From Mesostigma viride (lineage: Eukaryota; Streptophyta; Mesostigmatophyceae; Mesostigmatales; Mesostigmataceae): a DNA stretch of 64,000 nt. Position numbers and translations under genes: made by a program. The stretch lies in the NCBI GenBank assembly GCA_009746045.1, contig RPFO01001247.1, positions 7,501 to 71,500 of the forward strand, given 5' to 3'. A model generated the notes under the pieces. It saw only the letters and a list, made by a program, of their open reading frames with translations. It had not been told where the DNA came from and did no database searches. The first letter of the stretch is position 1, and every line of letters begins with the position of its first letter. Shown here in pieces: positions 2,605-63,600 of this stretch.

Positions 2605-3212
2605 CATTCAGTCAGTCAGTCAGTCAGTCAATCAGTCAGTCAGTCAGTCAGTCAGTCAGTCAGTCAGTCAGTCAGTCAGTCAGTCAGTCAGTCAGTCAGT
2701 CAGTCAGTCAGTCAGTCAGTCAGTCAGTCAGTCAGTCAGTCAGTCAGTCAGTCAGTCAGTCAGTCAGTCAGTCAGTCAGTCAGTCAGTCAGTCAGTCAGT
2801 CAGTCAGTCAGTCAGTCAGTCAGTCAGTCAGTCAGTCAGTCAGTCAGTCAGTCAGTCAGTCAGTCAGTCAGTCAGTCAGTCAGTCAGTCAGTCAGTCAGT
2901 CAGTCAGTCAGTCAGTCAGTCAGTCAGTCAGTCAGTCAGTCAGTCAGTCAGTCAGTCAGTCAGTCAGTCAGTCAGTCAGTCAGTCAGTCAGTCAGTCAGT
3001 CAGTCAGTCAGTCAGTCAGTCAGTCAGTCAGTCAGTCAGTCAGTCAGTCAGTCAGTCAGTCAGTCAGTCAGTCAGTCAGTCAGTCAGTCAGTCAGTCAGT
3101 CAGTCAGTCAGTCAGTCAGTCAGTCAGTCAGTCAGTCAGTCAGTCAGTCAGTCAGTCAGTCAGTCAGTCAGTCAGTCAGTCAGTCAGTCAGTCAGTCAGT
3201 CAGTCAGTCAGT

Positions 3213-3214
<2 letters not shown>
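2536..3214. repeat. (CAGT)n block of compound tetranucleotide array
   Basis: The array opens with a short (GACT)n run, then a short (GGCA)n run at about 2570-2605, then some 600 bases of (CAGT)n with a single AATC-type interruption near 2630. It passes directly into (CAGG)n at 3215. Confidence 0.97.
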
Positions 3215-4784
<1,570 letters not shown>

Positions 4785-5236
4785 CCGACGGACGGACGGA
4801 CGGACGGACGGACGGACGGACGGACGGACGGAGGGACGGACGGACGGACGGACGGACGGACGGACGGACGGACGGACGGACGGACGGACGGACGGACGGA
4901 CGGACGGACGGACGGACGGACGGACGGACGGACGGACGGACGGACGGACGGACGGACGGACGGACGGACGGACGGACGGACGGACGGACGGACGGACGGA
5001 CGGACGGACGGACGGACGGACGGACGGACGGACGGACGGACGGACGGACGGACGGACGGACGGACGGACGGACGGACGGACGGACGGACGGACGGACGGA
5101 CGGACGGACGGACGGACGGACGGACGGACGGACGGACGGACGGACGGACGGACGGAGGGACGGACGGACGGACGGACGGACGGACGGACGGACGGACGGA
5201 CGGACGGACGGACGGACGGACGGACGGACGGACGGA
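4785..5236. repeat. (CGGA)n block of compound tetranucleotide array
   Basis: About 450 bases of CGGA repeats with two GGGA variant units (near 4831 and 5156). This is the third block of the continuous tetranucleotide array. On the minus strand it reads as Pro-Ser-Val-Arg repeats. Confidence 0.97.
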
Positions 5237-5700
5237 TAGAGCACACAGGGGATTCACGGTCGCCAAAGCACCCTGCGCCATGCGTGCACATCTGTCCATA
5301 CCTCCATGACAAGCAGCACACAAAGGGGGCAACCAGCACATGCTGTGGTTTGTGGGCTACTAGCACGGCAACCATTAGGCATCATGTAAACAAGCCGCCA
5401 TATGCAAGGGAAGAATGGTGTGCACCAGAAAACATGAAGAGCTATCTTGCCGTTGCGCACTAGGCTTCACAATGGCGACCCCTAGGCCATGGTTTATACC
5501 TGCTGTTCACTTTAGCCGATTGTTTATACCTGATGGCACTGAGAGCTGGATAAAGATCTAGATAGCGTGTACTGCCTGAGAACAGAAGCACGACCAACGG
5601 CCCCAGGGACCATCATGGGGAAAGTGGCTTAAGGCCAGCCTACAGAAATGATCAACCTAACTGCACACCCAGAATGCTCCTAACAAATTCCAGAACATGC
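5237..5700. other. Spacer downstream of the ZGRF1-like gene
   Basis: Unique sequence between the tetranucleotide array and the last supported exon of the minus-strand gene. I looked here for a further exon carrying the Asp-Asp-Leu-Trp segment that follows in ZGRF1-family proteins and found none. Confidence 0.4.
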
Positions 5701-15700: not shown

Positions 15701-18700
15701 AGCTCAGATGGGCCAATGAAGCCTGTTGCAAGCTCAGGTAGCGAAGGGACCTACGCACAGCTTGCCGCTGCCTCCACCTCCGATGGAACGTGGACATCAT
15801 CGTCCTGGAAGGCCAGGGTGAGGGGAGCGGTCGTTGAAGGGCAGGGGGGTGATGAAGGGTTACGGCTGTCAGCAGCAGGAGCAGCCGCCAACGAGGGCGG
15901 CCACGTGCCCATGGCACTGCTCATCTTGAACACGGTGCTGTACTCACTGCACGACAGCGACATCACTGACAGGGACGAAGACCCTGCAGGGCAGCTGGCC
16001 TGGCTGGAGGCGCAGCTGGCCTCGTGTGTGGCCGAGGTAAAGTTGGGCCTGGCTCGGTCAACGTGAGTCGTCCTTGTTCATACCCTTTCTCCCATTCTTT
16101 CCTCTTTCTCCACCCCCCTCCCGCTTCCTCCGCCTTTGCAACTTGGGCATTTATCTCTGCACTCGTGTGGGTAAAGGTACGTGAGTCCATGACATTGACA
16201 CGTGTATTCTGGCATAGTTTCCTTTCGGCAGCGTGTGGCTGGATCCTTGCCAGGCCCAAGGTATGGGGGCCGGGGGATAGTACTTGGTTCCTTTTCTTGT
16301 CCAAGCCTCTCTATCGCCTTTTTCGCATCGCGTTCACCTGCTGGAGGTCCAAGCTGTGCAACCAATGGGTGGCAATGGCTTCCCCTATAATGCATCAAAG
16401 CCGTTGCCCTGGCAGGCATTTGCCAGGCAGCACCTCACACTTCCAACTGGCATGCTGGTATACAATGCTTGGATGGCATGCCTGGCCGGTGGACGGCATC
16501 ATCGAAGGTAGGTGTTCGCATTGCCAGCTCGCTAGTACAGCTCTCACCGAGTCCGAATTTCGAAGGAGAGCACTGAAGGAGAGCGCCCTGGTCCTGGTGT
16601 CTTCCTACTGCTGACGGCAGCCAGCGAGACTCGTCTGCCTCGGCCTCAGCGCCATACGTTTGTCAGCAGCATGAACATGTGTCTCCAGAACTATCCCCAT
16701 CCATGCAGGAGTCGTGCCCGCATTATTTGCCCGGCCTTGGGACACATCCGCAACCACAGTGAGCGTTGCTGTTTTGGCCGTATTCAATCAGATCGTGTAA
16801 AAAGGAAGAGCATGTGTGAGTACGTGTCGTCAGCTGGCCACAAATCTGGTGGCAGGCGTGCAGTGCCACCGACACATTCCAGGTGGGGGTGTCTGATGTA
16901 GAGTAGAGTAGAGTAGAGTAGAGTAGAGTAGAGTAGAGTAGAGTAGAGTAGAGTAGAGTAGAGTAGAGTAGAGTAGAGTAGAGTAGAGTAGAGTAGAGTA
17001 GAGTAGAGTAGAGTAGAGTAGAGTAGAGTAGAGTAGAGTAGAGTAGAGTAGAGTAGAGTAGAGTAGAGTAGAGTAGAGTAGAGTAGAGTAGAGTAGAGTA
17101 GAGTAGAGTAGAGTAGAGTAGAGTAGAGTAGAGTAGAGTAGAGTAGAGTAGAGTAGAGTAGAGTAGAGTAGAGTAGAGAATATATGCCGTGTAGTCTGCC
17201 TGGCTTGTTCGCCGGTGGGTGCGGAGCGAGCCCCATTGGAATGGGTACCCAGAACTTGGCCATGCGCTGTGGGACCAAGTGTGTCAATACCTTTGTGTTT
17301 TTTGCGAAGCCAATGTGCATTTCCTCTTTTGTCAAAATTAGAAACTGCGTGCACGTCGTTGTCAACGTGGGAGTGGGTTGTGTCCCGCTACTGCAGGGGA
17401 GGAAAGCGCTGATCGCGGGCCACATCCCGCCTGGTGTCGCCAGCCACAACATGCGTGGGTCTCTCTGGAGGAGTTCCTTTGGTGAGGCTCGTCGTGGCTG
17501 TTGCTGTCGCCAGCATGCCAACTGTAATTGCTGCCGTGTCGATTCGTGCTGGTGTTTGGAGGATGAGGACTGTTTAGGGTTTAGGGTGCATTTCATTGAC
17601 GCGGCCGACCCACTCTGGGATGCCTGCCTGGATGCACGCCTGCACTGGCATGAGTTACTTGAGTGTTGAGAGCGAATGGGTAACAAATTTAAACCATCTA
17701 ATTATTAGACGGCATGATGGCATTCCCTGCCGGTGCATCCACCTGCCCCAGCTTTGTCGAGGGGGCCGCTTTGTATCCGTTCAGCCTCTCCCTTCACCAT
17801 GCATATCATTACCCCACACCACCTGTGCCTGCATGCCGCAAACCCCTATTCGCACGGCCCCCCTTCGGCGGGGGTCGCTGCCCCTGCATCTCCCCCAGCG
17901 GAGAAGTACCGCCAGCTCACCACCAAGTACGGGTCGGCCATCGTGGGACACCTGTATGGCCACCTCCACCGGGACCAGTTCCGCATCGTCCAGAGCAATC
18001 CGCCGCAGTTCCTGCGCCAGCTGGGAGCAACGCTGGCGTCCGGGGGAGACGCGCCAGCCAGCTCGGATGTGCTTGATGTGTGCGACAGGAATGTGACAGG
18101 TGGCAGCAAGGCAAGTACCAGCACAGCCGTCGCCCATGTGGCGGCAGCAGCAATGCCCCAGCGGATGCCATCCGGGCGACCTGGGAGAGTCGACACGGGT
18201 CCAGGGGCGGGCATAAACGAGGGAATACAGGACGGCGGTGGCGGTGATGACCTGCCACTTGAAGATGGGGTGGTCCTCATCGCGCCCTCCGTATCCCCCC
18301 TGCGCGACAACAACCCGGGCTTCCGCGTGTTCCACACCGATGAGGACACCAGTCAGCTCACCAACTACGACCAATACGCCACTGCCGTGGCGGTAGGTGG
18401 CTTGGCGCTCATCGTAAATGTGAAACAGGACCGTAGTGGTAGTGGATCGTGGAATGAAGGATGGCTTGCGCTCCTCCACCGTTCGTTATTGAACACTCTG
18501 GGCAGCCAATCATGTGGGGGATGTTGTGCCATACGGTGTGCTGCATGCGTTCTGGTGCTCTTTGGTAATGCTAACTATGTTTGTGCCTGGGGGCTGGGGC
18601 AAGGCAGCAAGGCAGATAAAAAAAGGGCATGTTGCGCCCGCCCGTGTGTGGGCACTGGGTTGCTAGGCGAGGGAAGATGTTCATTTCAATGTGGCCCAAA

Positions 18701-21130: not shown

Positions 21131-21480
21131 CGGCCCCCACGGTCCATTGGTAGAATGCAGGGTAGAAGGCCTCAGGTGGAGGTTATTGCCGGCGGTGGTC
21201 TCCATCATCACTACTTGCCATCTATCCTTGCGTACCATCTGCCTCCATGTCCCAGACAAACCATTCCCCCCTATGTCCGCGCCCTACTAGGTGCTGGAAT
21301 ACAGAGTGGTGTGCATGCAGGTGCACTTTGTGCACCGGCCCAGCGCAGGCGTAGCTTACACCCTACGCTTGCAGGAAGTAGCCAAGAATGTATTAAAAGC
21401 CGTATGCCCCTTCTCAGGGATATGTGCTACATGTACTCCCACCGGAGATCTATATGTTGTAATTTGTGCACCCTAGAACT
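21120..21480 (+). mobile_element. Degenerate retroelement 3'-end fragments
   Basis: Positions 21130-21190 resemble the reverse complement of 55125-55200 (shared GGTAGAATGCAGGGTAGAAG). Positions 21370-21450 resemble the 3' tails at 58201-58288 and 61218-61310 (GGAAGTAGC, AGAATGTAT, ATGCCCCTTCTC). I read this as truncated copies of the non-LTR elements found at the right of the window. The small overlapping open frames here are not genes. Confidence 0.6.
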
Positions 21481-37800: not shown

Positions 37801-40800
37801 CGGGGCCCGCGCGCATATCACTGCTACCTGCATGGGGTCAAAGACGCCATCGTTGCTTCGCACCCATGAACACTTGGCGCTCCTGTGCTAGCGTGCCTGC
37901 ATACATGCTCGCATGGGTATGGTTGCCTGCATGACCGATTGTTGCACCGCACAGTGACCGGAAAGTCATTTGTCGGCCACGGCATGTGCAAGCTGATGTT
38001 ATCGAATGCCCACAAAGATGGCCTAGATCTTATCACCATACGAAGTGGAGCCAGAAGCCCATGATCACGGACATGAGTGTCCGGGCACTTTGTTCCTCCT
38101 GCATCCCAACTTGCATCCGTGTCCATGCCAGTCTTCACGCTCCCGTCTTGCGTCCGTGTCCATGCCAGTCTTCACGCTCCCATCTTGCATCCGTGTCCAT
38201 GCCAGTCTTCACGCTCCCATCTTGCATCCGTGTCCATGCCAGTCTTCACGCTCCCGTCTTGCATCCGTGTCACAATCCTGTCTTCATGCTTTCACCTTGC
38301 ATCTGCCGGCATCCACGTCCTCTGCCATTATCCTTGCTTTCCTCCCCATTTCTGGCTGGTCCCCGACGCCATTTGTGCCACCAATGCCGTTATGATTTCC
38401 GCTGTGTCCGTGCGCGCAGGCGGACGGTTGGATCGTCAAGCGGGTGATGACGCTGCAGAACCCGAACGCGGGCCACCCGCGGCGCTTCTGGGCGGTGTAC
38501 ACCAAGCTGCTGGTGTTCAACCTGACCGAGTACGATCGAGGTGAGCGAAACGGCTTGCACAGCTACTGAGTACGACCAAGGCGAGGCAGGACACATGGTC
38601 AGCTGGCATTTGTCACTTCTGCCATTTGCCCATGTGTGATCACTGCGCAGATTGAACCCAAGCTACGTGCACCGGTAAGCATTGAGCCTCTCGGCTCTGG
38701 ATGGACACGTGGCAGCTGGCGTGTGGAGCACAAAGCATATGGTGCGCATGTACTTGTTTCAGAATGGCCACCACCGCCCACACCACCCCCCACCCTTGGA
38801 CACACACACACACACACACACTCAACGCTTCTATAAGAAGTGTTGCTATTTGATATAGTAAGAAGCGTTACTAAAAGATGGTAAGCCTGCAGACATTGTG
38901 CTGGAGTTCTTCTCAACTTGTAACAATGAGTCTTCTTTTGTTATCAAAACCGTGTTGTCCTGCCAGAGCATCAAGTGTATGTGTTCCTGATGCTCACTCC
39001 TTTATACTTCCCCTCCATTCTGTGTCCCTATTTCCTGCACACCACTGGATGCCATGTCATCCCCACCCACCCTTATTAAATTACCATACATCCCCACCAA
39101 TACCCACCAATGTCCCCACTCAACCACCCCCATCTTCCCCATCCCATCCCATCCCATCCCATCCCATCCCATCCCATCCCATCCCATCCCATCCCATCCC
39201 ATCCCATCCCATCCCATCCCATCCCATCCCATCCCATCCCATCCCATCCCATCCCATCCCATCCCATCCCATCCCATCCCATCTCATCCCATCCCATCTC
39301 ATCCCATCTCATCACATGCCCACACATCCCATCCCACCTCATCACATGCCCACACATCCCATCCCACCTCATCACATGCCCACACATCCCATCCCACCTC
39401 ATCACATGCCCGCACATCCCATCCCACCTCATCACATGCCCACACATCCCATCCCACCTCATCACATGCCCACACATCCCATCCCATCTCATCACATGCC
39501 CACACATCCCATCCCACCTCATCACATGCCCACACATCCCATCCCACCTCATCACATGCCCACACATCCCATCCCACCTCATCACATGCCCACACATCCC
39601 ATCCCACCTCATCACATGCCCACACATCCCATCCCACCTCATCACATGCCCACACATCCCATCCCACCTCATCACATGCCCACACATCCCATCCCACCTC
39701 ATCACATGCCCACACATCCCATCCCACCTCATCACATGCCCACACATCCCATCCCACCTCATCACATGCCCACACATCCCATCCCACCTCATCACATGCC
39801 CACACATCCCATCCCACCTCATCACATGCCCACACATCCCATCCCACCTCATCACATGCCCACACATCCCATCCCACCTCATCACATGCCCACACATCCC
39901 ATCCCATCTCATCACATGCCCACACATCCCATCCCACCTCATCACATGCCCACACATCCCATCCCACCTCATCACATGCCCACACATCCCATCCCACCTC
40001 ATCACATGCCCACACATCCCATCCCACCTCATCACATGCCCACACATCCCATCCCACCTCATCACATGCCCACACATCCCATCCCACCTCATCACATGCC
40101 CACACATCCCATCCCACCTCATCACATGCCCACACATCTCATCCCATCTCATCACATGCCCACACATCCCATCCCACCTCATCACATGCCCACACATCCC
40201 ATCCCACCTCATCACATGCCCACACATCCCATCCCACCTCATCACATGCCCACACATCCCATCCCACCTCATCACATGCCCACACATCCCATCCCACCTC
40301 ATCACATGCCCACACATCCCATCCCACCTCATCACATGCCCACACATCCCATCCCATCTCATCACATGCCCACACATCCCATCCCACCTCATCACATGCC
40401 CACACATCCCATCCCATCTCATCACATGCCCGCACATCCCATCCCACCTCATCACATGCCCACACATCCCATCCCACCTCATCACATGCCCACACATCCC
40501 ATCCCACCTCATCACATGCCCACACATCCCATCCCACCTCATCACATGCCCGCACATCCCATCCCATCCCATCCCATCCCATCCCATCCCATCCCATCCC
40601 ATCCCATCCCATCCCATCCCATCCCATCCCATCCCATCCCATCCCATCCCATCCCATCCCATCCCATCCCATCCCATCCCATCCCATCCCATCCCATCCC
40701 ATCTCATCCCATCCCATCTCATCCCATCTCATCACATGCCCACACATCCCATCCCACCTCATCACATGCCCACACATCCCATCCCACCTCATCACATGCC

Positions 40801-43800
40801 CACACATCCCATCCCACCTCATCACATGCCCACACATCCCATCCCATCTCATCACATGCCCACACATCCCATCCCACCTCATCACATGCCCACACATCCC
40901 ATCCCACCTCATCACATGCCCACACATCCCATCCCACCTCATCACATGCCCACACATCCCATCCCACCTCATCACATGCCCACACATCCCATCCCACCTC
41001 ATCACATGCCCACACATCCCATCCCACCTTATCACATGCCCACACATCCCATCCCACCTCATCACATGCCCACACATCCCATCCCACCTCATCACATGCC
41101 CACACATCCCATCCCACCTCATCACATGCCCACACATCCCATCCCACCTCATCACATGCCCACACATCCCATCCCACCTCATCACATGCCCACACATCCC
41201 ATCCCACCTCATCACATGCCCACACATCCCATCCCATCTCATCACATGCCCACACATCCCATCCCATCTCATCACATGCCCACACATCCCATCCCACCTC
41301 ATCACATGCCCACACATCCCATCCCACCTCATCACATGCCCACACATCCCATCCCACCTCATCACATGCCCACACATCCCATCCCACCTCATCACATGCC
41401 CACACATCCCATCCCACCTCATCACATGCCCACACATCCCATCCCACCTTATCACATGCCCACACATCCCATCCCACCTCATCACATGCCCACACATCCC
41501 ATCCCATCTCATCACATGCCCACACATCCCATCCCATCTCATCACATGCCCACACATCCCATCCCACCTCATCACATGCCCACACATCCCATCCCACCTC
41601 ATCACATGCCCACACATCCCATCCCACCTCATCACATGCCCACACATCCCATCCCACCTCATCACATGCCCACACATCCCATCCCACCTCATCACATGCC
41701 CACACATCCCATCCCATCTCATCACATGCCCACACATCCCATCCCACCTCATCACATGCCCACACATCCCATCCCACCTCATCACATGCCCACACATCCC
41801 ATCCCACCTCATCACATGCCCACACATCCCATCCCACCTCATCACATGCCCACACATCCCATCCCACCTCATCACATGCCCACACATCCCATCCCACCTC
41901 ATCACATGCCCACACATCCCATCCCACCTCATCACATGCCCACACATCCCATCCCACCTCATCACATGCCCACACATCCCATCCCACCTCATCACATGCC
42001 CACACATCCCATCCCACCTCATCACATGCCCACACATCCCATCCCACCTCATCACATGCCCACACATCCCATCCCACCTCATCACATGCCCACACATCCC
42101 ATCCCACCTCATCACATGCCCACACATCCCATCCCACCTCATCCCATCCCATCTCATCCCATCTCATCACATGCCCACACATCCCATCCCATCTCATCAC
42201 ATGCCCACACATCCCATCCCACCTCATCACATGCCCACACATCCCATCCCACCTCATCACATGCCCACACATCCCATCCCACCTCATCACATGCCCACAC
42301 ATCCCATCCCACCTCATCACATGCCCACACATCTCATCCCACCTCATCACATGCCCACACATCCCATCCCACCTCATCACATGCCCACACATCCCATCCC
42401 ACCTCATCACATGCCCACACATCTCATCCCACCTCATCACATGCCCACACATCCCATCCCATCTCATCACATGCCCACACATCCCATCCCACCTCATCAC
42501 ATGCCCACACATCCCATCCCACCTTATCACATGCCCACACATCCCATCCCACCTCATCACATGCCCACACATCCCATCCCATCTCATCACATGCCCACAC
42601 ATCCCATCCCACCTTATCACATGCCCACACATCCCATCCCACCTCATCACATGCCCACACATCCCATCCCATCTCATCACATGCCCACACATCCCATCCC
42701 ATCTCATCACATGCCCACACATCCCATCCCATCTCATCACATGCCCACACATCCCATCCCATCCCATCACATGCCCACACATCCCATCCCATCCCATCAC
42801 ATGCCCACACATCCCATGGACTCTGTCACTTTCCATCTCTCGCAGTTGTGTTTCTGGACGCCGACACGCTCGTCCTGCGCAACCTGGACGCGCTCTTCTC
42901 CTGCGCTGGCTTCTGCGCCAACTTGAAGCACTCGGACCGCTTCAACAGCGGCGTCATGGTCGTCACGCCCTCGGCCACGCTCTTCCAGGACATGATGCGC
43001 CACATGCCCACCACGGCATCATACACGGGAGGTAGGTGGGCGCCCCCCTACCCTTCCTTGTGGCTTTAGAGTCTCGCAGTCTCCCTGTGGCCATGGACCT
43101 AGCAGGCTATTCTCTTTTTTGATCATAACTTAAATTGGAAGCCACATGTGCCAGGAGCATCACTCACATTCCTCAACCATGCACCATGATTGCCCATCTC
43201 CCCCCCCCCCCCCCCTGCAGGTGACCAAGGTTTTCTCAATTCGTACTTCTCTGGCTTTGCGCGCGCACGCATGTTCCAGGAGCCTTGCCGCGCCCATCGC
43301 AGCGCCACTCTGCCCGCCGTCACTGCCATTGCCACGGGTGACAGCAGCCAGTTGTCGCACGACCTGTTTGACCTGGACAAGCTCGTTGGGGGTGACGCAC
43401 AGATGGCAGGATTATCCCATGAACAACAGGGTCCGAGGTCACGCCGATGGCCGCTACCAGGTGGCAAGGTCGCGTTGGACCTGCGGCGTGAGCGCAAGCA
43501 GAGGTTGGAAGCCACGGCGGGTGCCTACGGTGGCGACAATGTTGTGTCGGGAAGCAGACAGGAAGCACTGGAGCTTGTGATAGAGGAGGCGGAGAAGCTG
43601 GGGGAGGCTGGGGCTGGTCACATGATTCTTGATCAAGCGTCTGGAGAGCCCCACTCCGTGTTGGTAAGTGCGGCTGCAGGCGAAGTGCCAGATGAAGGCC
43701 GCAAGGGCCTTGGTCTGCAGCCAGAGGAGCTGGCAGCAAGGCACGGCCACCTGCCCAAGAGGGCATGGCGCACGCCTGGCCACACACGGCGTCCCAGGGT

Positions 43801-50220: not shown

Positions 50221-50660
50221 ATTAATTAATTAATTAATTAATCAATTAATGAATTAATTAATAAGCACGTGACTGCGTCACGTGGGTGCCAATACAGAGT
50301 AAAGGAACCTTCATCAACCCTATATACACAACGAGAAGGAGGGAGGGCGCTCTAGCTTCTCTCACTGCGGCAAGTGGGCAGGCCACAGAGCGCTCTCTCC
50401 ACAGCATGGTGCATGCCGGGGCGCAACACTGTGGGTGCAATACAACCAACTGTCTGTGCAATATACCATATAGGTAGGCTGTCAGACGCATATAGCTTAT
50501 GCTTGTGCACCCCGAGTAGGTGGCGGTTTACATCACCCCCCACCTGCAGGTTGTAGCTCAGATCGAATGTATTACAAACCATATGCCCCCTCTCAGGGCT
50601 AGATGCGTCACATAAGCTCCCAAATGAGTTAATTAAATGTACGTTCTTAATTACTTAATT
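50221..50660 (-). mobile_element. Retroelement 3' end with hairpin and (TTAA)n tail, copy 1
   Basis: Read on the minus strand, the sequence ends with the hairpin CACGTGACGCAGTCACGTG (50266-50284) followed by a TTAATT-rich tail (50221-50265). The adjoining 50285-50480 is about 90% similar to 51141-51310 and to the reverse complement of 52601-52770. Positions 50560-50630 also resemble the tail of the ORF1-only element, so pieces of two families adjoin here. Confidence 0.7.
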
Positions 50661-50662
50661 AA

Positions 50663-51070
50663 TTAATAGCTTATGCTACAAAGGTGAGGTGGGCTCAAGA
50701 CGTCGGCTAAGGCGCAAGCTGATGGCCACAAGCTAGGTGTCAGAGCTAACTGTGAAGCTACTATAACGCTGTGCGCTAATATCAATCCAAGTGCTGTAAT
50801 GCCTAAGCCATTCCATAATCGATTGCCCCCATCTAGACAACTCAGTAGCTTGAGTGCTCTATCGGGACCGCGGGGGACTAGCCCGGGGGGGCTTCCACAG
50901 TTTCTTGTTGACATAAAGGTCCCCGCCCCGCCAGTACACTTCATGGGGCTTCTCGGGGTTGGCCATGTGGCGGATGTACGTAGTCAGGCCACTGATTGCG
51001 GTGTTGCCTGCTGCTGGGCTGGCGTCACGTCGTCGTCAAGCGTACATTTAATATTATATGTTGGCTAAGT
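50663..51070 (-). mobile_element. Repeat fragment with unrecognised minus-strand coding-like segment
   Basis: Positions 50665-50760 (GGTGAGGTGGGCTCAAGACG) recur at 51335-51400. The minus strand at 50980-50800 has coding-like character (HMANPEKPHEVYWRGGDLYV, then a shift of frame to GNRLWNGLGITAL) but matches no domain I recognise. Probably the remnant of a mobile-element protein. Confidence 0.4.
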
Positions 51071-55079: not shown

Positions 55080-56295
55080 GCTGTCAGTACGTAGCGGCTA
55101 ATATCCTCAGGGGCAATACTAGCCAATTATAACCTTCACCTGCGGACTTCTACCCTGCATTCTACCAATGGCCGGGCCGCGGGGGCCGTGGGGAGACAAC
55201 AGGAGCATGCCCTGCACTGCATGCATGGAACTTAGGTGCTTATCGCAGACGGCAGCCCATTTCTCGATCCTTGTTGTTGTCTATCATGCGGGCGCGGAGC
55301 TATACAGATAATCCCAGAAGCCCTGCATCCTCAAGCACTTGTGTCACAACATAGGTCCGGGTTGTGCCGCGTCAGTACGTGCGGGGCGCGCGCAAGTTAA
55401 TTTGCCAGTGGGTTGTGACGGGACGTACCAAGGGACCCTGCCGTAGGAGGAGGTGTCTACCTGCAGTTGGCCAGTCCTAAGCCCGCCCCGGGCAGGGCCC
55501 ATGCACTATGGCCACATCGGTATTGACCTGGCCGGTCTGTGTGGGCAAGATCGATGGTCGGCAAAGAGGACCGCTCTTGGTGGCGCCGGGACGCCGAGGA
55601 TGTGACGTACGGAGCATTCGAGTGACTGTGCCCGTGTGCCGTCAAGCTGCTTGCTCAGGGCCTGGTCCAGGGTCCACGCCTCGCAGCCGTAAAGGAGGAG
55701 TGCTGAGGACAAGGGCCTTGAACAGAATGTGCTTGCGCCGCTCACCCAGGTATATAGCGATCGACAGGTCCAGAACCTGTCTGGAGGCGGCGGCTCAGGG
55801 CTGCCCAGCCAGGCCTAGCTAGCCAAATGCGGCCGGTGTTGATATCGTCGGCCGAGGGGCCAGCCAGCTGCATGCATGCTGGCCAAGGGTGGGGCTGCCG
55901 TCCAGCAGGAGGACTCAGGGTGGGTGGGGTGGTCCCAGCGGGGAAGCCGATCGCCTGGCGCCATGATGACCTCCGTTTTCATGTTGATCATAAGCCCGAT
56001 TGATGCACCTCCCGCGCTTGAATCCAGTGACAAGCTATCTAGCCAGAGTTGGGCGGATCGACTCCGGGGTCTCCATGCCTGATGAGAGTCGTGTCATCAG
56101 CGTAGATCAGGTCGCTCAGTCGGTAGGGTGCATGGGTCAAACCCGCTCGGTACGTATGCATGTAGTAGCTGGCGTACGCCGTGATCTCCATCACCGGCGG
56201 GCGCCCCTCCACCAGCCGGGGAATTAATCGGGCTTCAGTGCACACCTCATAATAATATATAGTCCACCAATATTATATGATGATTAGATATATGC
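55080..56295 (-). mobile_element. LINE A, 3' part: reverse-transcriptase C-terminal half
   Basis: The minus strand carries the RT catalytic motif in SDLIYADDTTLI (about 56140-56090). Beyond it come KTEVIMAPG and, in shifted frames, LLLYGCEAWTLDQALSKQLD (about 55700-55630), the thumb-region signature common in LINE polymerases. Frameshifts and stops show it is dead. It is the continuation of 58326-60600, from which it is separated by a 2.0-kb insertion with a target-site duplication. Positions 55125-55200 are shared in inverted form with 21130-21190 and probably belong to its 3' untranslated region. Confidence 0.8.
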
Positions 56296-56451
56296 ATGGA
56301 TGGGGAGACGAGCCACGAGCCACGAGCCACGAGGTAGCCATGGCTGACGGCGGAGCTCATAACTTTCACGTTTGAGCACCGAATTTAGCCGTGAATATCA
56401 CAATCGACGCACATGCTGATATAATTTTCCGCAGCTATTACGCAATATCCG

Positions 56452-57849
56452 ATGAGCAAACGCTTATCGACGCAACGCAGCCTGGCGGCTGCGCTCGGCA
56501 ATGAAAATACGTCTGCAGCTCCGGCTGCAGCTTCGCCATCAGGCCCGGCAGGCAGTGATGACACTAGTCGCGCACTGGTGGTCGTCCAGCACCCTCCCGG
56601 GCTTCCTGCCTCGCCCTCAGCCTCGCCTGAGCCAAAACGCAGCCGCCCAACCAAACCGAGCTGGTCTGAGCGCGACTTTGACGTTGACGGGTTATTTTCC
56701 ACCTTCGACGATGCCAGACCCATGCAGCTTTTTCGACATGCCACCCATCAAGATACTGGAGCTCGTGTTTTATGGGTCATACGCCTCCATTTTCGACCTG
56801 TGCAAGCGCCTTCAACGCCTTTGCCGCCTCCGCACTGGACCTGACGGCCGGTTTACTCACCGACAACATGCTGAGAACCTGGCCAGCTGGTCTCGCCCCC
56901 GTCTTCAGCTCGCCGCCCTCTTTTCCATCCTTCAGCGCTCTGTCACGGACCTCTGGACCCCCTCCCCCTTGTACGTCCGAATCCACCTTCCTCCTCCACC
57001 TCCAAGAAACCATCTCACAGCACGTGAAGCCCCTAGCTGCAGATGTGGCAGCTGTGGGTCGCACGCTGGCTGCTGAGCTCCCCACCATCCCCACCGCCAC
57101 CGCCACCCTCCTCGCCTCCACCCCCCCCGGCCCCTCCGCCTCCACCGACTCCATCACCGCCCAGCTCCGCGACATTGACCAGCGTCTTAAGGATAATGCC
57201 ATCGCTATCGAGGTCCTGCAGAACACCGCGGGCCTCACCGCCCAGGCGGTGAAGGACATTGCCGCCTCTGCTGGCCTGGCCGGCGATGCTCCTCCCATTA
57301 CGACCTGGGCGGACATGCTTAAGCAGCACACCACCTCCACCACTGACCTCCGCCGTCGCAGCCCAGCTCCAGCGGCAGACGCTCGACCTCCGCGAGGAGG
57401 CCGAGCTCGCCAAGCGCAGCCTCAACGTCATTGTCAAGAACTTCGACATGGAGGAAGGCGAGAATTCCGAGAAGTTTACGCGTGCGTTTGAGAGAGAAAT
57501 CCTTGGTCGCATGGGTCTTAATGGTGAGATCGACCTGGTCGCCCACCGCCTTCCCCGCGCGCGGGGTAAGGCAGGGCCGCCCCCGCTCCTTCTCACCTTT
57601 AAGAACCCGGCGGACAAGATTTCTTTTCTCCGACGCCGCAAGCGGCTCGAGAAGACTCTCTTCACCCTTGACGACGACTTGACCCTGGCGCAGCAACAAC
57701 GGCGACGGGAGCTATGGCCGACCTACCTCCAGCTCCGGCAGACCAAGACGGGCCAGCCCGTGTACTGGAAGGGGGCGGCCATCTACGTCGGCCACAAGCC
57801 CTGGCAGGCGACCCCCGCGGCCCCCGCGACTCCAGACGCCCCAGCTTAG
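56452..57849 (+). pseudogene. LINE ORF1-like RNA-binding protein, frameshifted
   Basis: It starts MSKRLSTQRSLAAALG, with a Pro/Ser-rich N-terminal region in one frame to about 56800. It continues in a second frame (about 56800-57330) with helix-rich sequence (ITAQLRDIDQRLKDNAIAIE), and returns to the first frame to the stop at 57847-57849. The last part (LAKRSLNVIVKNFDMEEGEN, IDLVAHRLPRARGK, LLLTFKNPADKISFLRR, WKGAAIYVGHKPW) has the coiled-coil plus RRM-like plus C-terminal layout of L1-type ORF1 proteins, which bind element RNA. Two frame changes suggest inactivation, though unnoticed introns or sequence errors could also explain them. No nuclease or polymerase domain is present. Confidence 0.75.
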
Positions 57850-58312
57850 GGGAATACAGCAGTAGTAGTGTAGAATAGATAGACCGTGGCCATGTACCTG
57901 TACGCCTCCTAGAGGCACTACTATCCCAGCTAAGCCACGCGCTTTATTTAATCATGTACATGTGTGCCTATGATGAGCCACCCTCCAGATGATGCCTAGC
58001 TTTATTTAGTCATGTTGTGCCCAAGTGCAGGGAGTAACTCTCTATAGCTGCTGAGACGCCCTGCCCTAGCTTTTTTGTATAGCTATGCTGATCTTCCCCC
58101 CCATGACAGGCTCCCCCTTCGCTGGGCATAGCTTGAAGATCATGGGGATGCAAGTGCCCTGGTGCACCTAGAGCAAGGGTCCTTTACATTCCCACCCTTG
58201 CAGGAAGTAGCTTAGAATGTATGATAGGCCATATGCCCCTTCTCTGGGCTATGTGCTATTATTATACATATACTCCCAACGGAGTTATGTTCCTAATTAA
58301 TTAATTAATTAA
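57850..58312 (+). other. 3' untranslated region and tail of the ORF1-only element
   Basis: From AGGGGAATACAGCAGTAGTA after the stop codon to the TTAATTAATTAATTAA tail. It aligns along its length with 60870-61331 in the truncated copy. The terminal segment with ATGCCCCTTCTCTGGGCTAT and CTCCCAACGGAGTTATG also recurs in degraded form at 21370-21450 and 50560-50630. Confidence 0.8.
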
Positions 58313-58325
58313 ATGGATGGGGAGA

Positions 58326-60600
58326 GCACAAAGCCCTGGTAGCCGGCACACCCCGGTACGTGTGCAAGGGGAATGCCAGAGTGACGCCGTCAGACAGCGG
58401 TACGGACCTGGGCTTGGGATATCGACCCTTCATATAGAACTGGCGGATGATCTCAACAATAATAATATACGATGGGACACGTGGAACAGGTGGAGGACGG
58501 CACATATAGCCCATTAGGGCGTCCCATATACTGATGACCGTATCGATTATGCCTTGGCCGGTGTATACCACGAAGATTGATCAATAATAGCATGCAATGA
58601 TAAGAGGCCGGGGGCCACTGAGGCGGTCCACCACTTCCTCGATCAGGCGGCGCGCAGTCATGGTGACCATAAGAAGACATATTGCGACCAACACGGAAGC
58701 CCATCTGGGACTCACCTAATAATTGGTTGGGAATCGAGGCTGGCACGCATGCGGTTCAGCAGGAGACGCATGCATGAAGACTAGTCAGCGCGCAGCTTTC
58801 AATATGGAGGCATACGCCGTGGTAGTTGCCGGTATCCTCGGTGCATGGATCGACCCCTTGCCCTTGTAGTAGAGCATGACCCGGACAGCGGTCTTCCAAT
58901 ACATCGGCGGGGAGCCTGGCCATGCATCTCGTAGAATCTGGTTGCAAACGGCCCGGAGGAAAGGCTCAAGCTCAGGTGATCAAGCTCAGGTGATGAAGCT
59001 CAGGTGATCATGCAAGCTCAGGTGACCTAGCTCCGGTGAAATATTGTCCACGTAATCCCATCATGGCAGCATCGCCGGCGCATCGCCAGTTGCGGACTGG
59101 GTGGAGATGGCAGCAGCCTATTCGGGCCGTGGGGTCTGCCACTCATCGCGGGGCCGGGCTGTCGATCCATCAGGAGGCCGGAGAGCGGTGGGACCAGGTA
59201 GCCCGTTTCTCCGGTGGGCACTGGTCAGACTGTGGGGGCTCAATAAGTCCGCCGCCGCATGCAGGGCGTGCAGCGGCAGCGGGCCGGTCGAGCGGGGGGG
59301 GTGGGCCAGGAGCCCCCCGGATAGATTGTAGTTTGGCGCCTGGGAGCTGAACCAAAGCTAGCTCCGAAGGCGTTCACTGGGGGTGCCTGGGATGTCGATC
59401 AGCCCTTTGCGTTTCCCGGCGTCCGGTGAGACGGTCGAGAGGTAACCACCATGCCACCTTGTGCTGCATGGTTGGCGGCTGCATGCACGAGTGGCGATTG
59501 ATCTAGCTCGGCGGCAAGTGTCTCCATGTACCTCGATCGGCGTGTGCGGCATGCAGTGCATGCATGCTTGGCGGTAAGCCGCTCTGGTATGGCTGGTACA
59601 CAGATCTTCCCCCGGCCGGCGCGCGGCGGCCGGCGGGCCAGCCTGCACTAGCGCCAGCCGGACGGCGACCACCCGGGCCGATAGTCGCGCAGGTATATAT
59701 AAAAAAAATATAATTACTTACAGCAGAGTGAAATCACTCAAACCAAAGCAAACACCCAGCTATAAACCTATATACAGAGCCATGTCATTTGAAGCTCTAT
59801 ACTACGATAAGACCAATGGAAACTCCTATAATGGGAGGAACCTAATAGCCCTGCATGCTGCACCGCAAAATCAGCCCGCGTACGGCGGAGCATTCGATGT
59901 CAGCCATGGCCCGAGTCAGCGCCATGCACCGACAAGCGCTGACGCCAATATGACGTCCAGGTCCGCGCCGACCATGGGGCCCGCTGGCCCTCCAGGTCCA
60001 GCCGGTCCTCCCGGAGCCGGCCACACTCCTTGAAGAAGGCGGAGGTCAGGGGCCCCATGCATGGCCCCAAACTCCTCCAGGACAAAGGGCACCACACGAT
60101 GGTGCAGGTATATTATATATAGAGGGGCTGGGCGGGTGTGGGTTTGCTCAGGGGAGCAGTTGAAAGCCAAGATCCACGTTTCGCATGAACCGCAGTTCGT
60201 AGTAGGGTGCATGGCGTGAGATCCAGGCCGCATCCGGCATCCAGGTGGGCAGCCACAATAAAATAACTGAAGGCAGACCTGATTGCGTCGCGGCGCGTCT
60301 CCAGTCCTCGGACGTACCACTTGGTCCCGGCGCCCGGCCGCGGATGGGGCGTAGGCAGGTTCAATCTGACAGGGCGTGGGCGTACGTGGGCTGCGCGCGC
60401 TCGGGGGCCTGAAGACGTAGGCGCAAGGTTGCGGTGACCATGCGGTGATCCGATGCGAGTTGCGACACTTGGGGTGGTCAGCTAGCGTACAGGCATCGAT
60501 GATTTTGCAGAAGAATGCCAGCCGACACTTGCGCACAAGTATGTAGTCCAGGCCGCCAGCCAGTGCGGCATATATCCTGACCTGTCCTGGCCCCAATTAT
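58326..60600 (-). mobile_element. LINE A, 5' part: endonuclease and RT N-terminal half
   Basis: From high to low coordinates on the minus strand: an endonuclease-like end (GGLDYILVRKC, then IDACTLADHPKCRNSHRITA) at about 60580-60400; a linker with ARRPGEDLCTSHTRAAYRQA (about 59640-59560); RT segments LLQGQGV and ESQMGFRVGRNMSS (about 58870-58680); then FVVYTGQGIIDTVISIWDAL and QFYMKGRYPKPRSV (58580-58400), ending near YQGFVLSPS, where the ORF1-only element interrupts. Numerous frameshifts and stops are present. The order EN then RT is typical of APE-type LINEs. No intact gene remains. The upstream boundary near 60600-60700 is uncertain. Confidence 0.75.
58970..59035. repeat. AAGCTCAGGTGATC short tandem repeat
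   Basis: Four or five copies of an approximately 15-bp unit with GCTCAGGTGAT lie within the degenerate LINE A sequence. It is a local expansion, not a protein feature. Confidence 0.8.
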
Positions 60601-60712
60601 TCCTAGAAAGTTGAAAGATGGGTAAACCTGCCATGAACTATGCACAGCAGTTGCTGGCCGACCTAGCTAGTGGTCCCAGCTAACAACAAAGTTTGAACAC
60701 CGCATTTCCTCC

Positions 60713-61331
60713 CGCGACGGGAGCTATGGCCGACCTACCTCCAGCTCCGGCAGACCAAGGCGGGCCAGCCGGTGTACTGGAAGGGGGCGGCCATCTACGT
60801 CGGCCACAAGCCCTGGCACGCGCCCCCCTCGATCGACCACCGCGGCCCCAGCGACTCCAGAAGCCCCAGCCTAGGGGAATACAGCAGCAGTAGTGTAGAA
60901 TAGTTAGACAGTGGCCTTGTACATGCCCGCCTACTCCAGGCACTATACCAGCTTTAATAGGCCTAGCCTTATTAGTCATGTACATGTGTGCCTATGATAA
61001 GCCACCCTCCAGATGATGCCTAGCTTTATTTAATTATGCAGTGCCCATGCAGGGAGTCACTCCCTGCTGAGAAGCCATGCCCTAGCTCTTGTATAGCTAT
61101 GCTGATCTTCCCCACCTATGACGGGCTCCCCTTAGCTGGGAGTTGCCCGAGACTCTGGGTGGTGCAGGTGCCCTAGTGCACCTTAGTAGAGCAAGCGTTG
61201 TCTACATTCCCACCCTAAGTTGCAGGAAGTAGCTTAGAATGTATTATATAGGCCATATGCCCCTTCTCTGGGCTATGTGCTACATATACTCCCAACGGAG
61301 TTATGTTCCTAATTAAATAATTAATTAATTA
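60713..61331 (+). mobile_element. 5'-truncated copy of the ORF1-only element, 9-bp target-site duplication
   Basis: From GCGACGGGAGCTATGG onward this is about 90% identical to 57706-58312, covering the last codons of ORF1, the 3' untranslated region and a TTAATT tail. It is flanked by ATTTCCTCC at 60704-60712 and 61332-61340. Truncation at the 5' end plus a short duplication is the hallmark of target-primed reverse transcription. Confidence 0.88.
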
Positions 61332-61374
61332 ATTTCCTCCTCTCTCTTGCATGCCTAGCAGGACTGCTATGCAG

Positions 61375-61680
61375 AATAAGACTTGAGCTAGGTGGCAGAC
61401 GATTGTCCAGGCTAGCTCACACGCCAGCGCCCCTGCATGTGGGCAAGCCCCCCCCCCCCCAGGAGGAAGGGGCGCTTTGCGCCTGAGTAGAGTAGATAGG
61501 ATTTTCTAGACTATAGAGCTCGAAAACTAACTAAGATCTTAGAGTTAGCTTAGTTAGGTTTCGCGGCCTCGCCCACCTCCATCCATCAAGCAAGGGAATA
61601 CGTGCTACATGATCTCCCAACGTGTACATACATGGAGTCATGTTATAATTTAATTTAATTAATGTAGTCCAAGCAAGCAC
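61375..61680 (+). mobile_element. Truncated LINE B 3' end, plus orientation
   Basis: Shared with the reverse complement of about 62270-62520: a GATTGTCCAGGCT segment, CACACGCCAGC, a poly-C/GGAAGGGGCG segment, GATTTTCTAGACTA, GCCCACCTCCATCCATC and CATGATCTCCCAACG, ending in TTTAATTTAATT. It contains only the 3' part, as expected of a truncated insertion. Confidence 0.75.
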
Positions 61681-62205: not shown

Positions 62206-63600
62206 TATTATACATTTATTAAAATTTATAATTACTTAACTAAATTAAATTAATTAAATAAAATTAAAAATTAAATTATAACATGTCTCCGTTGGGAGAT
62301 CACGTAGCACATATTCCTTGCTGGATGGATGGAGGTGGGCAAAGCCGCGTAATCGAACGAACCTAACTCTAATAGATCTATCTAGTCTAGAAAAATCCTA
62401 ACTACACTACTCAGCAAAACGCCCTTTCCGCTTGGGGGGAGGGGGCTTCAGTGCCCACAGGGGCTGGCGTGTGAGCCTGGACAATCTTCTGCCACCGCTT
62501 CTTGTTCTGCATGGCCGGCAGTCCAAAGAAGAGAGAGGGAGTAAATGCGGTGGTCGAACTGAGCTGGGACCACTAGGTCGGCCAGCAAGTCGGCCAGCAA
62601 CATGCATCTGGATGTAGTTCATGGCAGGCTCAGTACCTAGCTTTCTAGGAATGTCCTTGGGGCCAGCTAGGCCAGGTCAGGATGTGCCGCCCTGGTTGGC
62701 CATTGAAGCCGCTGGGGGCCGGCCAGACCAAGGGCGGTGTCGACCTGCATGACTGGTGCGAGCAAGATGTCAGTCCTACAAATGCTATCCTACGCTGCCT
62801 AATCTCGTCCGAAATGCGAGGCATACCCTGATACAAAGACTCTAATGACCTATGCTTGGAAAACCCTACATTCAGGACCTGTCGGAGCATCCTGTAAACC
62901 GTGCCGTCTAGCTTAGCCCCCAGTGTGTCCGTGAGTGTCCATGCCTCGGCGCCATACGTAAGCACCGTGAGGACGAGGACCTTGAAGAGCATGCGCTTAC
63001 GGTGCTCGCCCATGCAGGCCCTTCGAGCGCCAGTAGGTGTTGAGCGGACGGAGCCGGGCCCAGGCCAGGCCGATGCGGATGTCCACATCGTCGGCGGTGT
63101 CGGGGAGCATGCTCCCTAACAGCTAGTTTGAAGCGATCACGGAACGGGACCTCCGCCGGTCCCGTCGAGCAGGCGCGGCAGCGGTGGGCGACTGGAGGCC
63201 CCAATCATGCACCATCGCCTCAGTTTTGACACTAATCTCCAACCCCACCGCCGGCCCTTGCGCCTCCAAGCCCAGACAGTCCAGCCAGGTCTGAATGTGC
63301 TCGAGGCGCGATATGAGGGTGGTGTCATCCACATAAATCAGGTCGGCCAGGCGGTAGCCAGTGCCACCCCCGCCGTGCTCGCGCTCGTTAAGAATGTCCA
63401 AGCCGGGCTCGAACCCCTTAAGAGAAGTAAAGCGCGCATGTGCATGCCCGGCCCGGCCATGCATGACGTGATCCACGACAATAGTGAACAGATATTATGG
63501 GGACAGGACACAACCTTGCCACACCCCGTGGTGAAGGGGGAATGGTGGGGTGATGCCTTCCGCAGTCCGCACTACTGCCTGTTTCTTACTTATGTATTGT
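62206..63600 (-). mobile_element. LINE B: reverse-transcriptase remnant with 3' UTR and AT tail
   Basis: The minus strand reads GVWQGCVLSP (about 63530), VDHVMHGRAGHAHARF, then LADLIYVDDTTLISRL (about 63350-63300, RT catalytic motif). In other frames follow MLFKVLVLTVLTYGAEAWTL (about 62985-62930) and LGAKLDGTVYRMLRQVLNV, the polymerase thumb region. Downstream come the 3' untranslated segment shared with 61375-61680 and a tail at about 62210-62280 rich in TTAAATTAATTAAATAAAAT. Frameshifts show it is dead. It differs from LINE A (YADD versus YVDD, and different 3' ends), so two subfamilies are present. Confidence 0.8.

Follow-up and report, generated by a model that had tools for sequence, protein, structure and literature searches.

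An ORF1-bearing retroelement family without a polymerase gene in Mesostigma viride, resembling mammalian half-LINEs

The DNA studied is a 64-kb window of the Mesostigma viride genome (assembly GCA_009746045.1, contig RPFO01001247.1, positions 7,501–71,500 of the forward strand), in which a retroelement without long terminal repeats (LTRs), here termed E1, lies within an opposing long interspersed nuclear element (LINE), LINE A. E1 is flanked by an exact 13-bp target-site duplication, ATGGATGGGGAGA; the window has no copies of this 13-mer other than those starting at 56296 and 58313, and in 300 first-order resamplings of both 200-bp end regions the longest common word did not exceed 11 nt. The element is 2004 bp long, consists of a 5′ untranslated region (UTR), a first open reading frame (ORF1) and a 3′ UTR, and terminates in (TTAA)n. 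Neither an endonuclease (EN) nor a reverse transcriptase (RT) is matched by Pfam in its three ORF pieces or apparent upon reading of the three plus-strand frames. The length, terminal repeat and missing polymerase given in an earlier note on this DNA are thus confirmed, as is the insertion of an ORF1-type element into an opposing LINE with a 13-bp duplication. The gene type proposed there also stands, but not a single ORF: E1 itself is a decayed, broken copy, with ORF1 interrupted twice and legible as three frame pieces.

E1 sits within the QGxVLSP motif of the RT of LINE A, which is encoded on the minus strand. Excision of E1 together with one copy of the repeat yields a continuous minus-strand frame, GYQGFVLSPSMHI...VDYIL, across the junction, bringing the two RT halves into line as the note states. 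Across the restored junction, YQGFVLSP of LINE A matches WQGCVLSP of X′, a second LINE in the window, and the motif order is the same in both elements (QGxVLSP, YADD downstream, then YGxEAWTL). Summed tblastx matches between LINE A and X′ reach an E-value of 3e-17, mainly from the YADD and YGxEAWTL parts; no Pfam match was obtained in the part of LINE A at 58326–60540.

Table 1. Retroelement features of the window (positions are those of the window)
Feature	Position	Strand	Basis
E1, ORF1-only non-LTR element (5′ UTR, ORF1, 3′ UTR, TTAA tail)	56309–58312	+	Target-site duplication; at least 31 near-full-length genomic matches, including itself
Target-site duplication, left copy, ATGGATGGGGAGA	56296–56308	.	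13 bp
Target-site duplication, right copy, ATGGATGGGGAGA	58313–58325	.	13 bp
E1 5′ UTR, 143 nt, CGAGCCA tandem repeats at start	56309–56451	+	Stops in all three frames
E1 ORF1, three frame pieces (roughly 56452–56770, 56772–57360, 57360–57849)	56452–57849	+	Frame reading; other copies
RRM and following C-terminal part of ORF1p	57418–57801	+	AlphaFold model, pLDDT 59; Foldseek and VIA matches to human L1 ORF1p
E1 3′ UTR and tail, about 460 nt	57850–58312	+	83 % (gaps counted) to E2 over common stretch
E1 3′ stem-loop, CTCCCAACGGAG	58273–58284	+	Fold and recurrence in other 3′ ends
LINE A, 3′ half of RT (YADD motif), split by E1	55129–56295	−	Motifs
LINE A, 5′ half of RT and endonuclease-like C-terminal part	58326–60540	−	Motif only
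X, 3′ part of X′-type LINE inside LINE A, carries E2	60551–61661	+	10-bp duplication ATGTAGTCCA at 60541–60550 and 61662–61671
E2, second family copy, 5′-truncated, ORF1 C-terminus then 3′ UTR, inside X	60713–61331	+	9-bp duplication ATTTCCTCC at 60704–60712 and 61332–61340; unoccupied site in the paralogous X′ sequence at 62252–62700
X′, 5′-truncated LINE, RT motifs, common 3′ stem-loop at 62287–62298	62252–63582	−	Motifs; genome matches
F50, 162-bp 3′-end fragment, third E-related family	50504–50665	+	12-bp duplication ATAGCTTATGCT at 50492–50503 and 50666–50677
F21, related 3′ UTR fragment	21315–21447	+	74 % to E1

The E1 sequence was searched against the window's own assembly (440 Mb, 2243 contigs). 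Of 7125 first-look candidates the best 40 were scored, giving 103 listed matches and a sample that is biased towards close relatives of E1. At least 31 places, E1 itself included, match from about position 1 to about position 2002 of the element; 30 were examined, and the 31st, of which an incomplete stretch was retrieved, was left out. The 5′ ends coincide near 56309, the at least 31 matches starting at element positions 1–28 with a number of CGAGCCA repeats at the E1-type 5′ edge that differs among copies. In 30/30 places exactly 59 nt separate a motif late in ORF1 from the beginning of the 3′ UTR, and this constant spacing means that none of them holds an inserted EN-RT gene. The full-length copies examined thus consistently pass from ORF1 directly into the 3′ UTR without an ORF2. 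The contrary layout, with EN-RT between ORF1 and the 3′ UTR, was sought and is absent from all 30 places as well as from two older full-length single copies met in the chosen flanks described below. One of these (L053:754–2747) is 82 % identical to a young copy; the other (L052:5970–7948) shows 73 % identity over the ORF1 part and 88 % over the first 344 nt. In both, ORF1 is followed by the 3′ UTR.

Of the 30 near-full-length copies, 26 have perfect end repeats that reach 10 bp or more (10–13 bp); the repeat is 8 bp at one copy and no more than 5–6 bp at three. As a control, left and right ends of different E copies were paired, and 28 of 870 such pairs reach 10 bp. The 26 end repeats are all mutually different (18 begin with AT) and therefore mark independent insertions. 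There are 28 distinct copies besides E1, and each is on average 99.35–99.65 % identical (gaps excluded) to the remaining members, among which E1 is counted; for E1 the mean is 96.3 % (gaps excluded; 93–94 % with gaps). E1 is thus related to, but older than, a very recent burst whose young copies carry a (CAATT)n tail. The E family is multi-copy and recently amplified, and E1 is not a one-off deletion.

Two further patterns are seen among E copies. At L006, L016, L034, L035 and L041, neighbouring E copies break off at element positions 1569, 1726, 1944, 1766 and 1327, respectively, as if the 3′ third of the element were a favoured insertion target. Additionally, about 10–30 nt of unrelated filler lies between the duplication and the CGAGCCA repeats at the 5′ junctions of L003, L007, L008, L012, L021 and L028; this looks like the trace of an unusual 5′ end-joining step.

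E ORF1 is predicted, from a low-confidence model, to encode a protein of RNA recognition motif (RRM) type with a fold closest to that of the ORF1 protein (ORF1p) of LINE-1 (L1). When this low-confidence model is compared with PDB structures, the top five rows of both the Foldseek and the VIA lists are human LINE-1 ORF1p, with aligned identities of 14–22 % among them. In the models the RRM-like part is preceded by a helix and followed by a helix-strand-strand unit; VIA alignments cover the RRM alone. Over 145 codons of the RRM and C-terminal domain (CTD), the ratio of nonsynonymous to synonymous substitution rates (dN/dS), given without a significance test, is 0.22 for E1/L009, 0.45 for E1/L053 and 0.41 for L053/L009; comparisons with L052 over 74 codons, likewise without such a test, give 0.36–0.45. 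Between E1 and E2, 7 of 148 coding sites have changed as against 52 of 440 UTR sites (p 0.011), so that coding sequence is the slower to evolve.

E elements terminate in GTGCTACATATACTCCCAACGGAGTTATGTT followed by the tail, and X′-type LINEs in GTGCTACATGATCTCCCAACGGAGNCATGTTATAATTT followed by the tail. In 144.7 kb, comprising the window and ten chosen flanks, 17 exact copies of the 12-mer CTCCCAACGGAG were counted vs 0.016 expected from dinucleotide content, a count inflated by the choice of flanks (10 regions, 80.7 kb), which were picked around five E insertion sites that appear to be insertions into X′-type LINEs; 4 of the 17 exact copies lie in the window alone. Of six 3′ ends tried, four fold into its stem-loop; in F50 and X the stem-loop is changed. 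A search of the same assembly with X′ gave 9478 first-look candidates, of which the best 40 were scored. Of 12 X′ loci from this search, one being that of the window, 7 fit the stem-loop pattern and the other 5 depart from it by a single base. A stem-loop followed by short repeats is the form of the 3′ end in both E and X′, a feature of the ‘stringent’ type. RVT_1 is matched in an X′ copy halved by a young E insertion (E-values 3.4e-11 and 7.6e-8) and, in a second search, in one further X′ RT-region piece (9.7e-10). Upstream of the RT in X′ locus L060 is the motif SSDHRLVRTTIRL, a candidate apurinic-type endonuclease without a Pfam match there. Nearly all X′ genome matches among the best 40 of 9478 candidates begin at query position 416 or beyond. 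Judged from these sequences, the X′ family, or a relative with the same stem-loop end, would be the likeliest EN-RT donor.

The E elements are very probably a half-LINE family, convergent on mammalian HAL1 and moved in trans by LINEs that recognise the common 3′ end. The earlier note had likened E1 to half-LINEs, and this reading is supported and widened to a family, the 30 places and two older copies all being ORF1-only. In the mechanism proposed, a putative transcript of the element would be coated by ORF1p of the same or a related copy, as the fold suggests, and its 3′ stem-loop would be recognised in trans by the EN-RT protein of an autonomous LINE, as the shared sequence suggests. The borrowed EN-RT would then nick the target and start target-primed reverse transcription. 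The anatomy observed comprises target-site duplications of 9–13 bp, 3′-anchored copies, repeat tails, some 5′ truncation and amplification without ORF2.

Several observations weigh against this interpretation. Besides the inflated count of the 12-mer, the sequence common to E and X′ is limited to the last ~60 nt, and the tails are unlike, being (TTAA)n or (CAATT)n in E and mostly (AATTT)n in X′. In the second search, two of three X′ RT-region pieces gave no RVT_1 or other Pfam match, and no copy with a complete 5′ part is present among the X′ loci examined. Thus the partner LINE with the same 3′ end that the note asked for is found in so far as RT-bearing stem-loop LINEs exist, but not as a complete LINE, nor with more than ~60 nt in common. 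Because so little is common, an origin of E from an X′ LINE by loss of ORF2, as HAL1 from L1, lacks support. For the protein, the models are of low confidence (pLDDT, the predicted local distance difference test, of 56 and 59) and no ORF1 piece tried has a Pfam match to an L1 ORF1 family. L1 ORF1p scores 4.6 in VIA vs 4.0 for cellular RRMs, rows within 1 Z being tied, and the CTD is backed solely by Foldseek's longer alignment, with a high root-mean-square deviation. Furthermore, ORF1 is unbroken from the start codon in 0/30 near-full-length copies, 26 of which stop at codon 260–261 after a homopolymer frame change. This common break lies between the N-terminal and RRM parts; L005 and L040 cross it in one frame, each being broken or truncated elsewhere. 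The break could stem from slippage at this site, from a master copy that was itself defective, or from misassembly. The amplified copies may therefore make no whole ORF1p, or the tract may be an assembly error.

The absence of an unbroken ORF1 among the 30 copies, most of them with the one common break, slightly lowers the probability of the half-LINE reading and raises that of young copies being passengers akin to short interspersed nuclear elements (SINEs), without an ORF1p of their own and with the ORF as a relic. Passenger status is nonetheless somewhat unlikely, given that dN/dS stays under 0.5 when older copies are set against younger ones, that coding sequence changes more slowly than UTR sequence, and that two copies read through the common break in one frame, though broken or truncated elsewhere. 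The same absence counts against a split LINE, in which ORF1p (E) and EN-RT (X′) would reside on separate co-amplified families with one common 3′ stem-loop, E supplying ORF1p to LINEs without ORF1 and neither moving well alone; such an arrangement appears improbable. It is a distinct possibility, though the lesser one, that the ORF1-only layout is right and the enzyme donor is a LINE other than X′, such as one that carries the whole E 3′ UTR. The short common end and the differing tail repeats would fit such a donor, and F21 and F50 suggest further families with E-like 3′ UTRs; X′, however, is very abundant, has the stem-loop and is the RT-bearing family with an E-type end among those examined. 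The family might alternatively be a chimeric retrogene or a SINE-like element, its gene coming from a processed cellular RNA-binding gene joined to the 3′ end of a LINE and not from a LINE-derived ORF1. That L1 ORF1p tops the listed cellular RRMs in the fold matches, and that the RRM-like part has a helix ahead of it and a helix and two strands behind it, make this decidedly improbable. Although E1 itself is broken and decayed, as might be expected if one ordinary LINE copy with two ORFs had suffered an internal deletion, its layout is common to 30 places, 26 of them with end repeats of their own, and to two older copies, and an isolated deletion is scarcely credible.

Elsewhere in the window, long simple and minisatellite arrays are open in several frames (1–1750, 3204–5375, 16830–17350 and 38878–43035), the last of which ends at a weak Glyco_transf_8 match (42830–43066, E-value 0.0099). 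At another genomic locus, an 811-aa open frame (L057:5545–7977, −) belongs to a Copia-type LTR retrotransposon, with matches to RVT_2 (8.9e-42) and an integrase core (6e-10).

HAL1 is spread by the enzyme of L1 and has a poly(A) tail. It is described as a non-autonomous mammalian element that encodes ORF1p only and derives from L1, with several origins within mammals (PMC5753468). Like HAL1, E carries ORF1 without EN-RT (30/30 places and E1) and has many full-length copies with target-site duplications. Unlike HAL1, its tails are TTAA or CAATT repeats, its 3′ end has a conserved stem-loop, and the part of an RT-bearing LINE that it has in common is just ~60 nt. E is kept apart from HAL1 on account of its different tail and the lack of an intact ORF1 among the copies examined, and because descent from one L1 is unsupported. 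The protein is like LINE-1 ORF1p in its predicted RRM fold and, by Foldseek, in its apparent order of RRM and CTD, and unlike it in the low aligned identity, in the lack of a Pfam match and in occurring without ORF2.

HeT-A of Drosophila likewise has ORF1 (Gag) and no known RT and is moved in trans; its protein is of Gag type, and its insertions are not known to have target-site duplications. HeT-A is described as a telomere element (PMC11698117). Unlike HeT-A, E has an ORF1p of predicted RRM type and dispersed insertions with duplications. SINEs are not known to carry a protein gene. The Chlamydomonas SINE SINEX-3_CR has ~80 nt of its 3′ end in common with the RT-bearing L1-1_CR, and a 3′ stem-loop is proposed as a ‘stringent’ recognition mark in a plant L1 lineage (PMC3747384). 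Like the SINE of such a pair, E is non-autonomous and has its 3′ end in common with an RT-bearing LINE; unlike SINEs, it is 2 kb long and carries an ORF1, for which comparisons of older with younger copies give a dN/dS below 0.5. E elements join half-LINE gene content with a SINE-like common 3′ stem-loop.

Mammalian recognition is of the relaxed, poly(A)-tail kind. Such recognition obscures why mammalian half-LINEs keep an ORF1 protein. Half-LINEs are described from mammals (PMC5753468); the probable half-LINEs of the present study belong to an unrelated eukaryotic genome, have a 3′ end of specific sequence, differ in age and include a very young burst. With the E family two ideas can thus be put to the test, namely a cis action of ORF1p on the RNA that encodes it and a benefit of retained ORF1p to an element that lacks a polymerase.
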